DNA from: Pseudomonas sp. H3(2019)
GTDB lineage: Bacteria > Pseudomonadota > Gammaproteobacteria > Pseudomonadales > Pseudomonadaceae
Direction of reading: 5' to 3'
DNA: 64,000 nucleotides
Assembly: GCF_007713465.1 (NCBI RefSeq)
Contig: NZ_VMSG01000001.1
Location: forward strand, 124,001 to 188,000
The first letter of the stretch is position 1, and each line of letters starts with the position of its first letter. A program made the position numbers and the translations under genes. Shown one piece after another: positions 14,496 through 19,916 of the stretch. Below the pieces are notes generated by a model. The model ran no database searches. It was given only the letters and a program-made list of their open reading frames with translations, and was not told where the DNA came from.

Positions 14496-14510
14496 CACCC
14501 GCAACGCACA

Positions 14511-14540
14511 AAAAAGGCGACCTCAAGAGGTCGCCTTTTT
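14511..14540. terminator. Bidirectional intrinsic terminator
   Basis: AAAAAGGCGACCTC (14511-14524) and GAGGTCGCCTTTTT (14527-14540) form a 14-bp stem with a 2-base gap. It lies between the convergent LysE-type and LpoB-like genes and has a T-run on both strands. Confidence 0.9.
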
Positions 14541-14558: not shown

Positions 14559-15302
14559 TTAGCGCAGAATAACCGGCGCCGTATCCTGCGGCAGGTTATT
14601 GCGCAGTGGCGCTTGCCCCGGCTGTTGCTGAGCACCGCGACCGAGTTGTTCACTCAACTGACGGGCCACGTCCTCACCCAGCGACTTGGACACATCACGT
14701 ACCACCCGTGGGCGGTTCAGCGAAACCTTGACGTCTTCGCTGTTGACCAGCTTGGTGTCCTGGCCATCACCCATGGCGGTGAACGCCGAAGTGATTTCAA
14801 AGGTCCGGGTGTTGATCAGACTGAAGTCCGCCACCAGGCTCAGCCCGAGAATCGCCGAATAGCTGTTGGTGTTGGCCAGCGCGGTGATGTCACGCGTGAA
14901 GTCGATATCCGACAAGGTGCCGAACAACACATAGTCGGCGCCCTTGTAGTTACCGGCCTTGATCCGCTTGATCACATCAAAGACGTCTTCCTTGGACTTG
15001 GCCGTGTAGGGCGAGCCTTGTACCAGCTGGAACATCCCGGACTTGAGAATTTCGCCCTTGATGTCGCCGCTGAACTTGCGAAGCTCGCCTTGCTCGATGT
15101 AGCTGCTGCTGGACTCGGTCTCGTTGTAGCTCGATGAGCCGCTGGCGTGGTACATGCCAGCCTGCATGTTGCTCTGCGCAGAGACGGTGTGGATGTACTC
15201 CTCCACCCGCTCTTGGTAAGCGAGGTCGGTGACCGCGATTTTCGGGGCCGCCTGCGCGCCAAACGCGCAGGCCAGGGCCATGATGCCAATCCATGCACGC
15301 AT
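14559..15302 (-). CDS. CsgG/LpoB-like exported protein
   Basis: A 247-aa exported protein with a signal peptide ending near residue 18 (AFGAQA). The middle (APKIAVTDLAYQERVEEYIH, later GADYVLFGTLSDIDF) resembles the CsgG/LpoB superfamily, in which proteins act at the outer membrane or activate cell-wall synthases. It lacks a lipobox cysteine, unlike the upstream gene. It is the last of four genes in one direction, with 3 bases between it and the LpoB-like gene. A role with the lipoproteins upstream is inferred from context only. Confidence 0.72.
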   Translation of the reverse strand: MRAWIGIMALACAFGAQAAPKIAVTDLAYQERVEEYIHTVSAQSNMQAGMYHASGSSSYNETESSSSYIEQGELRKFSGDIKGEILKSGMFQLVQGSPYTAKSKEDVFDVIKRIKAGNYKGADYVLFGTLSDIDFTRDITALANTNSYSAILGLSLVADFSLINTRTFEITSAFTAMGDGQDTKLVNSEDVKVSLNRPRVVRDVSKSLGEDVARQLSEQLGRGAQQQPGQAPLRNNLPQDTAPVILR

Positions 15303-15305
15303 TGC

Positions 15306-15893
15306 TTAACGCTCCGTGGTTTTGCGGATCTCTTTCTCGTCCATCCACTCGGCCAGGCCGCTTTCAACGTCGATCAGTTGCAGGCTGAACTTGTAGAAAA
15401 CGTCCTTGTAGTCGCTGCTGCGCTTGACGATCGAGCTGATCGAACCTTCAAGACGGTATTTGGCAGCGACCATGTTGCCGGTCTTGGCCACGGTGCCTTT
15501 CTTGTACAGGCCGCTCTGGTTTTGCAGCTTGAGCTGGTCGACCTGGCTCTGCATCGCGGTGTTGTCGCTGGCAAAGCGGGCAGTGCCGGACTTCATCAGC
15601 TGAGTCTTGATGCTGGTGGTGATTTCGCGGGTATCGATGTATTCGCTGGTCTTGTTCTTCACGTCGTAGACCTGCACGACCGGGCGGCCCTGCAAGATGC
15701 CGGACTGGGCCAGGGAACGGGTCATGGATTCGGCGATCATCTGCAGGTCAGTGGAACCGAACTCGTTGGTCACCAGCTCAACAGCCTTGCTGTCGCCGTA
15801 ACCGATGTTTTTCCCGCCCAGGACCGGCGAGTTGTTGGCGCAACCGCTGGCCAGAAGGGCGACCACGGCAAGGAACGAAAAGCGTGTAAACAT
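15306..15893 (-). CDS. LpoB-like lipoprotein (YcfM family)
   Basis: A 195-aa lipoprotein with the lipobox LLASGC (Cys18) and the LpoB/YcfM pattern of a GYGDSKAV N-terminus and YRLEGSISSIVKRSSDY further on. In E. coli, LpoB is an outer membrane lipoprotein that activates the cell-wall synthase PBP1b and is encoded next to ycfL, as here. Pseudomonads are known to use a different PBP1b activator, LpoP, so the role of this copy is open. Confidence 0.82.
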   Translation of the reverse strand: MFTRFSFLAVVALLASGCANNSPVLGGKNIGYGDSKAVELVTNEFGSTDLQMIAESMTRSLAQSGILQGRPVVQVYDVKNKTSEYIDTREITTSIKTQLMKSGTARFASDNTAMQSQVDQLKLQNQSGLYKKGTVAKTGNMVAAKYRLEGSISSIVKRSSDYKDVFYKFSLQLIDVESGLAEWMDEKEIRKTTER

Positions 15894-15927
15894 GGGAATG
15901 TCTCTCTGTCACGAAATAGGGCAAGAC

Positions 15928-16299
15928 TTAAGGGGTTTTGACTTCAAGGCGGAAGTCAGTGGCCTTGGGCACAGGCGCAATGGCTGGCAGGAACGTGGCC
16001 TGCGCGGCATACAGGTTCAGGGTTTTCCAGCTTTCTTCATCGGCCACCGGGAAGCCGTCGTCACCCAGCCAGACGAAGCGGTAGTACATCGTCATGTTGG
16101 TGTGGCTGGTGTTGTTCAGCGCGACCTTGACGGTCAGGAAGCCGTTTTCACGGGCGACCCGCATCGCGCCAATGGCGATGTTGTTGAACTTGTTCATCAC
16201 CACGACTGTGCTCGCGGCACTGCCAGGCGCAGGTGGCGGCGGGGTGGCGCAACCGGCCAGCAGAGCCAGGGCGGCGACAGCAATCAGTTTGAAACGCAT
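15928..16299 (-). CDS. YcfL-like lipoprotein
   Basis: A 123-aa lipoprotein with the lipobox LLAGC (Cys16) and a proline-rich linker. The body VKVALNNTSHTNMTMYYRFVWLGDDGF matches the YcfL/DUF1425 pattern. It lies between the COG3014-type gene and the LpoB-like gene in the same direction. Its function is unknown in any organism; conservation next to lpoB suggests an envelope role. Confidence 0.82.
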   Translation of the reverse strand: MRFKLIAVAALALLAGCATPPPPAPGSAASTVVVMNKFNNIAIGAMRVARENGFLTVKVALNNTSHTNMTMYYRFVWLGDDGFPVADEESWKTLNLYAAQATFLPAIAPVPKATDFRLEVKTP

Positions 16300-16312
16300 C
16301 GAGAAGCTCCGC

Positions 16313-17710
16313 TTAAGGTTGTTTGACGCTGGCCACGACTTGCGGGGTGGCGCTTGGGATCACGTGGGCGGCGACGCCGCTGGCGAACACCTGGTTGCCC
16401 ACCGTACGCAGGCTGATCACCTGGTAGCGCTGATCGACCTTGACCGTGATTCGCGAACCGCCCAGAGCGTTCGGCAGGCTCAGTTGGTGCTCGCCTTTGG
16501 CCAGACGCAGGCGCACCACTTGGGTGTTGTCGGGCAGGGTGCGCCAGGTGCGGGTATCCGCCCCTTCCAACACCGTCGACGTAATGCCTACAGCCAGACC
16601 GGCCAGAGGGTTGGTCTCGTTGATCTTCTTTTGCGCCACGGCGCGAGTCACGGCGCGGACGGTGGTGCGCAGGATGATCCCGGGCATATCGTCACGCAGT
16701 GCGCGGCGGGACATGGCAGTGGTGCTGTTGAGCTGGGTCAGGTTCTGTTGCTGGCCGTCGACACCGATCTGTGCGTACGTCACGGTCGAGGTGTCAGGCT
16801 TGATCACCGGGAATGACAGTGGGGTAATCACCACGTTGTTGCTGATCGGCAGTGGCAACGGAATGCGGATCGAGTCACGGCTCGGCGCCAGGCCGCTTTG
16901 CACGACGATCAGGATGTCGCTTTCTTCGCTTTTGCCGGCCGGCTTGTCCAGGTTCAGCAGTGCTTGTTCGAGCAGCGGAGTGTTAGGGCGCAGTTCGGCA
17001 GCTTTGCGATAGCCCGGCGCGGCCAGGTCTTTTTCGCCCAGGGCTTCGTAGACGAAACCGGCCAGGTAATGGCTGAACGCGCTCTGATAGCTGTTCTTCA
17101 GGCCGACCACTTCAGGCGCCTCGAGACTCGCCACCGGGTAACCCTGCAGGTCCTTGTACTGAGTCTTGATGCCTTGCTTCTCGGCCTCGTCCTCGCGCTT
17201 GAGGTATTCCTTGTCGCGCAGTTCAGCGATCACCGCTTCACGTTCGTGGGTCTTCTTGATTTCGGTACGGGCGCCGTCGAAATCGTTCACTGCCAGCAGG
17301 TTCAAGGCCATTTGTGTGGTCAGCATGACTTTTTCGTAGTCATACCCTTCGTAGCGGCGGACCTTGTCATTGACCAGAAAGCTGCCGAACTGGGCCAGGT
17401 ACTTGTCGGTGTCCAGCTTGACCGACTCTTCCCAGCTACCGACGACCTGGTCCGCGCTTCTCCACGCGGCCTGGCTGCCGGTCAGGTCGCCCTTGGCACG
17501 TAGCAGTTCACCTTTCTCGAAGTAATAGAGCAGGTCCTTGCTTTCGCCTGTGTTGTTCTTTTCCAGCAGGGTCAGGGCGGCGTCGACGTTACCGCTGGCC
17601 AACTGCTGGTTGGTTTGTTGCAGTTCTGTGTCGTAGCTGCGAAAGGCCGAACAACCGGCAAGCAAAGTGACTGCGCTGAGCGCGATCGAGGTGAGGGCGC
17701 GGGATGCCAT
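16313..17710 (-). CDS. COG3014-type TPR-like lipoprotein
   Basis: A 465-aa protein with signal peptide and lipobox LLAGC at about residues 16-20. TPR-like helical repeats run from about 30 to 290 (QLASGNVDAALTLLEKN, EALGEKDLAAPGYRKAAEL), followed by a beta-rich C-terminal part. The frame extends upstream to 17797, but the ATG at 17710 has AGGGAAGAAG before it and begins the signal peptide. It is the first gene of the four-gene envelope cluster and has a good promoter upstream. The molecular role is unknown. Confidence 0.82.
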   Translation of the reverse strand: MASRALTSIALSAVTLLAGCSAFRSYDTELQQTNQQLASGNVDAALTLLEKNNTGESKDLLYYFEKGELLRAKGDLTGSQAAWRSADQVVGSWEESVKLDTDKYLAQFGSFLVNDKVRRYEGYDYEKVMLTTQMALNLLAVNDFDGARTEIKKTHEREAVIAELRDKEYLKREDEAEKQGIKTQYKDLQGYPVASLEAPEVVGLKNSYQSAFSHYLAGFVYEALGEKDLAAPGYRKAAELRPNTPLLEQALLNLDKPAGKSEESDILIVVQSGLAPSRDSIRIPLPLPISNNVVITPLSFPVIKPDTSTVTYAQIGVDGQQQNLTQLNSTTAMSRRALRDDMPGIILRTTVRAVTRAVAQKKINETNPLAGLAVGITSTVLEGADTRTWRTLPDNTQVVRLRLAKGEHQLSLPNALGGSRITVKVDQRYQVISLRTVGNQVFASGVAAHVIPSATPQVVASVKQP

Positions 17711-17850: not shown

Positions 17851-17878
17851 ATTATAAGCGCGGATGCTGGCCATGTAA
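17851..17878 (-). promoter_or_regulatory. Candidate sigma-70 promoter of the lipoprotein cluster
   Basis: On the minus strand TTACAT (17873-17878) and TATAAT (17851-17856) are separated by 16 bases, a good sigma-70 match. It would start transcription about 140 bases before the first gene of the four-gene cluster. Confidence 0.5.
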
Positions 17879-18003
17879 TGGCTTTTTAATTTCATTTTTC
17901 TAGAAATGCCATCATCCGGGAGATGTCCGAATCCTCAAACTGTGGACGACAAAGCTTGAGTGGGAAGCATTGAGAGTGAACAATGTGTTACTTCGTATTA
18001 TCA

Positions 18004-18017: not shown

Positions 18018-19916
18018 ATGACTGTCCCGTCCCGTTTCCTGGCCTGGCTGGTGTTCCCGTTGTTTGCCTTGTGCAGTTTCAATTTGCTGGCCGACACGGT
18101 GGAAGGTGCGCCACAGGCACTGCATTTGCTCGATTACATTGGTGCCGATTACCCGGCGACCGTGGAGGCGGGACAGGTCATCGATGACGGCGAATACCGC
18201 GAACAGCTGGAGTTTCTCGGCGTCTTGCAGGGGCTGATCGTTGCGCTGCCGGCAAAACCCGAGCGCGCCGAGCTCGAGCAGGGCGTGAGCAATCTGCGTA
18301 ACGCGGTGACCCAGCGTCAGGACGGTGCGCAGGTAGCTCGTCTGGCGCGGCAATTGGGCGCGAGACTGGCAGTGGCCTATGAAGTCAGCCAGGCACCGAT
18401 CATTACCCCGGATCCCACGCGGGGTGCGCCGTTGTACGCGCAGCACTGCTCGGTGTGCCATGGCGACGCCGGTGCCGGTGATGGTCCTGCAGGTGTTGGC
18501 CTGACGCCGCCACCGGCCAATCTGCGTGATGCCACGCGGCTCGACCGCCTGAGCCTGTACGCGATCTACAGCACGTTGGGGCAGGGCATCGAAGGCACGG
18601 ACATGCCGGCCTTCGCCGATCAACTCGACGAGCGTCAACGCTGGGATCTGGCGACCTACATCGCCGCGTTCAGCGCCGATCCGGCCACGGCGAAAAGTGA
18701 AAAGAACTTCAACCTTGCCGATCTTGCCCGGCAGACCCCGGTGGAAGTGCTGGCGGCCGAAGGCCCTCAGGCAGCCGCTACGTTCCGCGCCCAGCGCGCC
18801 CAACCGCCGCAGGTCAAGCGCGGCCCGGCGCAGTTGCTCGATTACACCGCAGCGACCCTCGACAAGAGCCTGGCCGCGTACCGTGCCGGCGAGCGTGAGC
18901 AGGCTTATGACCTCTCGGTAGCGGCGTATCTGGAGGGCTTCGAACTGGTCGAAAGCTCGCTGGACAACGTCAACACCGTGGTGCGCAAAGACACTGAAAA
19001 ATCCCTGATGGCTTACCGTCAGTCGTTGCAGGACGGGCTGCCGGTCGAGCAAGTCGAGCAACGGCTGGCGTTTGCCAAAACCAGGTTGAAAGAGTCTGCG
19101 GACCTGCTGGGCAGCGATGGTTTGAGCTGGTCGCTGAGCTATGTCTCCGGTTTGCTGATTCTGTTGCGCGAAGGGCTGGAAGCGATTCTGGTTCTGGCTG
19201 CGGTGCTGGCGTTTTTGCGCAACACCGGTCAGCAGTCGGTGATTCGCAGCGTCAACATCGGTTGGGGATTGGCGCTGGTGGCGGGTTTGGCGACCTGGGC
19301 GCTGGCGGCCTACGTGATCGATGTCAGCGGTGCCCAGCGCGAACTGCTGGAAGGCTGCACCGCATTATTTGCCAGCGTCATGGTGCTCTGGCTCGGGGTG
19401 TGGATGCACGACCGTCGTCACGCGGCGGCCTGGCAGGATTACATCAAGAGCAGCCTGGTCAGTGGCGGTGGGCGTTTCGGGTTTGCGGCGCTGGCGTTTT
19501 TCTCGGTCTACCGCGAGCTGTTCGAAGTGGTGCTGTTTTACGAAACCCTGTGGCTGCAAGCCGGCCCGGCCGGGCATAACGCAGTACTGGCGGGTGGCGC
19601 CACGGCGCTGGTGCTGTTGATCGGTCTGGCCTGGGTGATCCTGCGCGGTTCGGCAAAACTGCCGCTGGCGCTGTTCTTCGGGATCAACGCCGGTTTGCTC
19701 TGCGCGTTGTCGGTGGTGTTCGCCGGGCATGGCGTCAAGGCTTTGCAGGAGGCCGGGATCTTCGGCACTCGTCCGGTGCCATTCTTTGACTTCGACTGGC
19801 TGGGGATTCACGCTGACGCTTACTCGCTGGGTGCGCAGGTGGTGGCGATTCTGGCGATTGTCGTGCTGTATAGCCGTAGTCGCATGGCGGAGAAGCGACG
19901 GGTGCAGGTTTCTTAA
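18018..19916 (+). CDS. Cytochrome c / FTR1-family iron permease
   Basis: A 632-aa two-part protein. After a signal-like N-terminus, a c-type cytochrome domain has the heme motif CSVCH at residues 144-148 and a likely axial Met196 in GTDMPAF. A helical segment follows (about 265-365). The C-terminal part (about 375-625) is an FTR1/EfeU permease with seven or so helices and the iron-binding motifs REGLE at 384-388 and RELFE at 499-503. FTR1 proteins import ferric iron coupled to oxidation of ferrous iron; the fused cytochrome may accept those electrons. No EfeO or EfeB gene is nearby. Confidence 0.88.
   Translation: MTVPSRFLAWLVFPLFALCSFNLLADTVEGAPQALHLLDYIGADYPATVEAGQVIDDGEYREQLEFLGVLQGLIVALPAKPERAELEQGVSNLRNAVTQRQDGAQVARLARQLGARLAVAYEVSQAPIITPDPTRGAPLYAQHCSVCHGDAGAGDGPAGVGLTPPPANLRDATRLDRLSLYAIYSTLGQGIEGTDMPAFADQLDERQRWDLATYIAAFSADPATAKSEKNFNLADLARQTPVEVLAAEGPQAAATFRAQRAQPPQVKRGPAQLLDYTAATLDKSLAAYRAGEREQAYDLSVAAYLEGFELVESSLDNVNTVVRKDTEKSLMAYRQSLQDGLPVEQVEQRLAFAKTRLKESADLLGSDGLSWSLSYVSGLLILLREGLEAILVLAAVLAFLRNTGQQSVIRSVNIGWGLALVAGLATWALAAYVIDVSGAQRELLEGCTALFASVMVLWLGVWMHDRRHAAAWQDYIKSSLVSGGGRFGFAALAFFSVYRELFEVVLFYETLWLQAGPAGHNAVLAGGATALVLLIGLAWVILRGSAKLPLALFFGINAGLLCALSVVFAGHGVKALQEAGIFGTRPVPFFDFDWLGIHADAYSLGAQVVAILAIVVLYSRSRMAEKRRVQVS

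Follow-up and report, generated by a model that had tools for sequence, protein, structure and literature searches.

Four genes lie in operon-like succession on the minus strand, from 17710 to 14559, of a 64,000-nucleotide stretch of DNA from Pseudomonas sp. H3(2019) (contig NZ_VMSG01000001.1, positions 124,001 to 188,000; the whole stretch is called the window below). They represent a module found across the class Gammaproteobacteria, in which a tetratricopeptide repeat (TPR) lipoprotein and a lipoprotein of the LpoB family are accompanied by YcfL, CsgG-type or LPP20-type partners. LpoB is the textbook activator of a wall synthase, the penicillin-binding protein PBP1b of E. coli. The LpoB-family protein of this cluster is probably not an activator of that kind, because the lipoprotein LpoP sits beside the PBP1b gene of this genome (5.86 Mb in 48 contigs) and because LpoB and LpoP coexist independently of one another across the class. 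The four genes are as follows.

16313..17710, minus strand: gene 1, a TPR lipoprotein of 465 residues with a helical TPR-like half and a beta-rich C-terminal half
15928..16299, minus strand: gene 2, a YcfL/DUF1425 lipoprotein of 123 residues, above the cut-off of PF07233
15306..15893, minus strand: gene 3, an LpoB-family lipoprotein of 195 residues with a short linker, assigned by PF13036 and TIGR02722
14559..15302, minus strand: gene 4, an exported protein of 247 residues with a predicted CsgG/FlgT fold, assigned from a weak LpoB match and the fold model

The preliminary description of this DNA, made from the letters alone, had listed three lipobox-bearing products and an exported fourth. Inspection by eye agrees, placing the lipobox cysteines at C20, C17 and C18 of genes 1, 2 and 3, and an export signal with no convincing lipobox in gene 4. 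Gene 1 is of a family that we take to be COG3014, although its TPR matches in Pfam are all below threshold. Gene 2, which had been left unnamed, scores 69.3 bits on PF07233 (DUF1425/YcfL; cut-off 28.3, E 2.8e-19), and its profile matches the solved relatives 3o0l and 4gio. Gene 3 is a clear member of the LpoB family, with 144.9 bits on PF13036 (cut-off 22.3) and 138.4 on TIGR02722 (cut-off 110.55). The LpoB match of gene 4 falls under the Pfam cut-off (20.1 bits, E 6e-4), but LpoB matches at E<=0.01 in 58 of the 60 rows of its Pseudomonas alignment; the CsgG family, PF03783, is unmatched by gene 4 at E<=0.1 and by all 60 rows at E<=0.01. Together with a model of the CsgG/FlgT/PelC type, described below, these matches bear out the earlier view that two of the four products are LpoB/CsgG-like.

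When contigs were searched with an alignment of gene 1, at least 541 relatives were confirmed, of which the best 80 loci were analysed, all of them labelled Pseudomonas. Gene 1 is 98% identical to its counterpart in Pseudomonas sp. 6D_7.1_Bac1 and 96% to that in P. fluorescens FW300-N2E3. The complete set of genes 1 to 4 occurs in conserved order in 78 of these 80 loci, the remaining two being cut by a contig end. Every complete locus has a gap of 0 or 3 bp between genes 3 and 4. The median ratios of non-synonymous to synonymous differences (pN/pS) are 0.22, 0.39, 0.13 and 0.28 for genes 1 to 4 (80, 80, 79 and 78 loci, respectively). The four genes are thus real and under purifying selection. 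A second gene 1 paralogue stands immediately upstream in 28 of the 80 loci (for example L165, L166 and L211) and is 53-62% identical in the aligned rows. In Pseudomonas sp. TH43 (L195:8413-10764), gene 4 is followed by three evenly spaced pieces of itself, each of 97 residues, through either tandem duplication or an assembly artefact.

The preliminary description saw in the cluster an additional LpoB-like pair. A pair confined to Pseudomonas is not supported, for the cluster belongs to a module that is spread over the class and includes a TPR lipoprotein. Among 274 genomes of the class, the TPR gene matches in 64 at E<=0.001, or in 51 once 13 with weak matches only (best E 8.5e-7 or worse) are removed, and LpoB matches in 82, or strongly in 52 once 30 with matches under 79 bits are removed. 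The TPR gene and a strong LpoB occur together in 49 genomes, LpoB alone in three and the TPR gene alone in two (Fisher p 6e-48), and at 47 of the 53 strong LpoB loci the TPR gene lies within 3.5 kb of LpoB. Across 50 loci chosen from the class matches for detailed annotation, four of them from Pseudomonas, the partners are YcfL (18 loci), LPP20-type proteins (16) and CsgG-type proteins (7), and YcfL and LPP20 never share a locus (0/50). When representative partners were compared with Pfam, five proteins reached or exceeded the cut-off of CsgG, three that of LPP20 and two that of FlgT_C. The gene 4 profile matches the CsgG-type neighbours with a probability of 94.8 over 103 columns, against 68.3 for LpoB. 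In two genomes of one genus (L079:9651-11075 and L080:8459-9904), a protein of 474-481 residues is encoded between LpoB and the CsgG-type gene; that of L079, the sole one scanned, contains DUF6844. A TPR-gene homologue broken by several stops (G282:C106:1615-2911), in a 1.6 Mb genome without a strong LpoB, resembles a decaying module.

The relation of this module to PBP1b was followed through LpoP and through the docking domain UB2H, which is also present in this genome. Here the PBP1b gene is immediately followed, on its 3' side, by a gene for a TPR lipoprotein of the LpoP type; the preliminary description had stated that PBP1b uses LpoP in Pseudomonas. Gene 1 is not this LpoP, since gene 1 is on contig C11 and the PBP1b gene and LpoP are on contig C29. 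The idea of an E. coli-like lpoB locus replacing LpoP, which the preliminary description had named as evidence against a separate machine, was accordingly set aside, LpoP being present. The comparison was extended to 75 other class genomes with a strong UB2H match, defined as a best E below about 1e-12 (160 of the 274 genomes; 69 with weaker matches and 45 unmatched are counted as lacking it). Of 35 genomes with a strong LpoB, 32 have an LpoP-like gene immediately 3' of the one for PBP1b, as do 37 of 40 without a strong LpoB (p 1.0). LpoB therefore does not replace LpoP, which is equally frequent with and without it. The 35 genomes were drawn from 39, this genome and three others being left out, and include three (G131, G192 and G094) in which LpoB has no counted TPR gene next to it. 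The other 40 were taken from 121 by rank of UB2H score, with the exclusion of G242, whose frame is partial, and G274, whose LpoB is weak. First-pass counts were 29/35 and 32/40; the eight further frames, taken from their longest start, share more than 100 bases with the PBP1b gene.

An LpoP profile trained on the 61 first-pass matches, 52 of which have a lipobox pattern, found 69 matches among 2137 open reading frames (ORFs) of the PBP1b regions, all directly 3' of the PBP1b gene, although its training means that these counts are not independent of the first-pass matches. Elsewhere it matched three times in 51 other loci (21.5 bits or less) and not at all in the 80 Pseudomonas loci. Among the six genomes without LpoP, a contig end truncates the PBP1b gene in one (L092) and lies 1.4 kb from it in another (L105). 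In all, 69 of the 75 genomes compared have an LpoP-like gene immediately 3' of the one for PBP1b (L002:645-1403 and the mrcB regions L088-L162), a much wider distribution than a published remark implies; an LpoP adjoining the PBP1b gene has been found and tested by others in Acinetobacter as well (PMC7943195). The three lipoproteins and the CsgG-fold protein are thus inherited jointly and independently of the PBP1b-LpoP pair, which supports the separate envelope machine that the preliminary description had suggested.

The linker of gene 3 is a further difference from the E. coli activator. It spans 30 residues from the lipid cysteine to the domain, within the 21-35 residues seen in the 42 other relatives whose lipobox can be read, compared with 58 in E. 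coli LpoB. Two papers give the unstructured N-terminus of E. coli LpoB as 54 residues with a span of about 145 A (PMC9593243, PMC6220978). Gene 3 thus does not have the long linker expected of an activator of the E. coli type.

The ycfL-lpoB pair of E. coli consists of the same two families in the same gene order as the cluster described here. The YcfL and LpoB profiles match both E. coli genes, but those profiles contain E. coli rows. At the K-12 locus, which is what was inspected of that genome, neither a TPR gene nor a CsgG-like gene adjoins the pair. Gene 3 shares 19% identity with E. coli LpoB and goes undetected when that protein is the sole query. In a tree of 47 LpoB domains, the E. 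coli branch measures 4.83 against a median of 0.21, although L246 (3.67) and several of the inner nodes also have long branches; E. coli LpoB sits in a polytomy in this tree, and its branch length was used rather than its position. As a query against 369 class genomes, E. coli LpoB gave 18 matches at E<=2e-5 with 22-30% identity; of the ten whose loci were annotated, eight lie in loci bearing YcfL and two in CsgG-type loci. The significant full-domain matches in the draws of 274 and 369 class genomes, taken from outside Enterobacterales with E. coli represented by its K-12 locus, include no close relative of E. coli LpoB (22-32% identity). One short match of 41% lies in a signal-peptide region, and no E. 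coli-like LpoB was found in the orders of genomes G074 and G305.

A survey with a 100-bit cut-off describes LpoB as confined to enterobacteria and recently evolved together with its docking domain (PMC3060616). In the present comparison, the ycfL-lpoB pair of E. coli resembles a reduced form, or relic, of the class-wide module. That LpoB probably does not serve PBP1b in this module suggests that E. coli LpoB was recruited from an older machine. We judge the chances to be evenly divided that LpoB was originally not a PBP1b activator but one component of a lipoprotein machine of the outer membrane, as yet undescribed, that consists of the TPR protein and LpoB with YcfL, CsgG-like or LPP20-type partners. 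This machine would be present across the class, with LpoP as the usual partner of PBP1b; the enterobacterial pairing of LpoB with PBP1b would have been recruited after loss of LpoP and the TPR gene, and E. coli YcfL may keep the old function. Recruitment of LpoB from the module is the simplest reading, and it is from these comparisons that we infer the direction of the change.

Structure prediction indicates what gene 4 may contribute to such a machine. Its model resembles FlgT most closely (Z 14.2, root-mean-square deviation 3.0, 150 aligned), followed by the LPHT ring (13.6), CsgG (12.3) and PelC (12.1), with lower scores for TolB (10.7), TraT (10.2) and LpoB (9.0). Gene 4 is thus predicted to belong to the CsgG/FlgT/PelC fold superfamily. 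It shares this fold with CsgG, PelC, FlgT and TraT at 10-18% identity in the rows displayed, but differs from the group in lacking a convincing lipid anchor and in lying at a locus where curli, Pel and flagellar genes were not recognised. Dodecamers of PelC, a decamer of TraT and the LPHT ring are mentioned in the titles of the matched structures. The model also contains a hairpin at residues 36-65. An outer-membrane pore of the CsgG type would have membrane hairpins along with its lipid anchor, and published work connects ring formation in the FlgP family with an inserted beta-hairpin, which FlgT rings also have (PMC12222027). The hairpin of gene 4 could be taken as no more than a hint of ring formation, because most of it has a predicted local distance difference test score (pLDDT) below 50.

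Gene 1 is modelled (54 rows) with a pLDDT of 74.8 and a predicted template modelling score (pTM) of 0.79, as a TPR-like helical half joined to a beta-rich half. LpoP of Pseudomonas, like gene 1, is an outer-membrane TPR lipoprotein; gene 1 differs in being longer and in having the beta-rich half. Structure 6w5q of LpoP aligns with the TPR half at Z 13.0; as TPRs in general reach similar scores, this likeness was not used as evidence. Foldseek returned mainly generic TPR matches with weak E-values, and whole-protein searches, in which the beta-rich half was not searched alone, showed no relative of that half.

The reading we favour, which we hold with about as much confidence as doubt, is that the operon encodes a periplasmic complex anchored in the outer membrane, likely with its subunits assembled by the TPR protein into a collar or ring, and that its role is probably in outer-membrane or wall integrity, or anchoring, rather than in PBP1b activation. 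The TPR scaffold, YcfL and LpoB would be anchored as lipoproteins at the inner face of the outer membrane, and the soluble CsgG/FlgT-fold subunit encoded by gene 4 would act with them. LpoB-type and gene 4-type domains would oligomerise as the collar or ring, an arrangement that seems likely because LpoB-type and CsgG-type domains share a superfamily containing several ring-formers, and the TPR protein would serve as the scaffold. PBP1b activation would be left to LpoP here. An analogy may be drawn with FapH of Helicobacter, which is reported to be a ring-forming lipoprotein, encoded in an operon with flgP, that protects the outer-membrane barrier (PMC11756786).

Several observations weigh against this reading. 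The cluster is patchy within the genus, gene 1 being found in 21 of 36 genomes, and its function is therefore dispensable. Six of the 53 strong LpoB loci have no adjoining TPR gene. The gene 4 model (60 rows) has a modest best mean pLDDT of 63.9, with the other four models ranging from 51.0 to 32.9. Strong UB2H is mildly enriched in LpoB-positive genomes (39/52, against 121/222 of the others, p 0.008), as would also be expected if some link to PBP1b existed. FlgH is likewise mildly enriched (37/52 against 111/222, p 0.008), and since this equals the enrichment of UB2H, a shared cause such as genome size is possible behind both. Co-occurrence with PBP1b variants, proposed as a check in the preliminary description, thus gives a divided answer, with this enrichment on one side and, on the other, 13 of 52 LpoB-positive genomes that are without strong UB2H.

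These figures bear on a role for gene 3 as a second PBP1b activator, which would bind UB2H as E. coli LpoB does, alongside LpoP and perhaps under other conditions. Gene 3 belongs to the LpoB family and the UB2H enrichment points the same way, but we consider this role unlikely given the LpoP gene beside the PBP1b gene, its equal frequency with and without LpoB, the 13 genomes without strong UB2H, the short linker of gene 3 and its escape from the E. coli LpoB query. Regulation of some other wall enzyme, such as PBP1a, an LD-transpeptidase or a hydrolase, would not need UB2H at all. The module combines LpoB and TPR folds, and LpoB, LpoP and CpoB-like TPR proteins are reported to regulate wall synthases in other systems (PMC7267771). 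However, no wall enzyme was recognised by eye among the ORFs flanking the cluster, in line with the earlier remark that no partner enzyme lies nearby, and the neighbourhoods showed no common partner enzyme family, though some neighbour families are unnamed. Such a regulator seems improbable to us.

The fold of gene 4 brings two further roles into consideration. Its resemblance to CsgG and PelC would suit an export channel or collar, as for curli or exopolysaccharide, but no cargo or synthase gene was recognised at the locus, and gene 4 does not look like a lipoprotein and falls outside the CsgG family in the alignment searches described above. We regard an exporter as quite improbable, and a curli or Pel exporter was set aside as no such partner was recognised. 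A flagellar accessory ring similar to those of FlgO, FlgP and FlgT would agree with FlgT and the LPHT ring being the top two fold matches of gene 4, with the FlgH enrichment, and with the LPP20-type and FlgT_C-like partners of related loci, which recall the FlgO/FlgP/FlgT H-ring and basal disk. Unlike the flagellar H-ring, the module occurs where FlgH has no match, in 15 of 52 LpoB-positive genomes, 13 of which have the TPR gene; the flagellar ring was set aside on this ground, and no flagellar gene was recognised at the locus within the window. It is the explanation we find very unlikely.

Two candidate signals and one neighbour complete the description of the locus.

17851..17879, minus strand: a promoter-like site, ATTACA, 17, TATAAT, agreeing at 10/12 positions
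14510..14540, no strand given: a 9-bp inverted repeat between A and T runs, seen by eye and absent from the motif scan listing

The preliminary description had credited the cluster with one good promoter. The site is present at 17879-17851, but one such site is within chance expectation, because shuffles average 0.7 of them. The inverted repeat may be the operon terminator. On the plus strand, the neighbour at 18018-19916 of the window appears by eye to carry a cytochrome c-type domain (CSVCH) in fusion with an iron permease resembling FTR1.

The component families of this module are known already. Among the papers listed from the open-licence PubMed Central (PMC) literature, none deals with this cluster or describes the system, judged by title or the start of the abstract. 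If LpoB, so well known for activating a wall synthase, is a long-standing component of a different outer-membrane machine, its story turns into one of recruitment. Annotations of a 'PBP activator LpoB' beyond enterobacteria may then mislead on function, and YcfL would gain a testable context.

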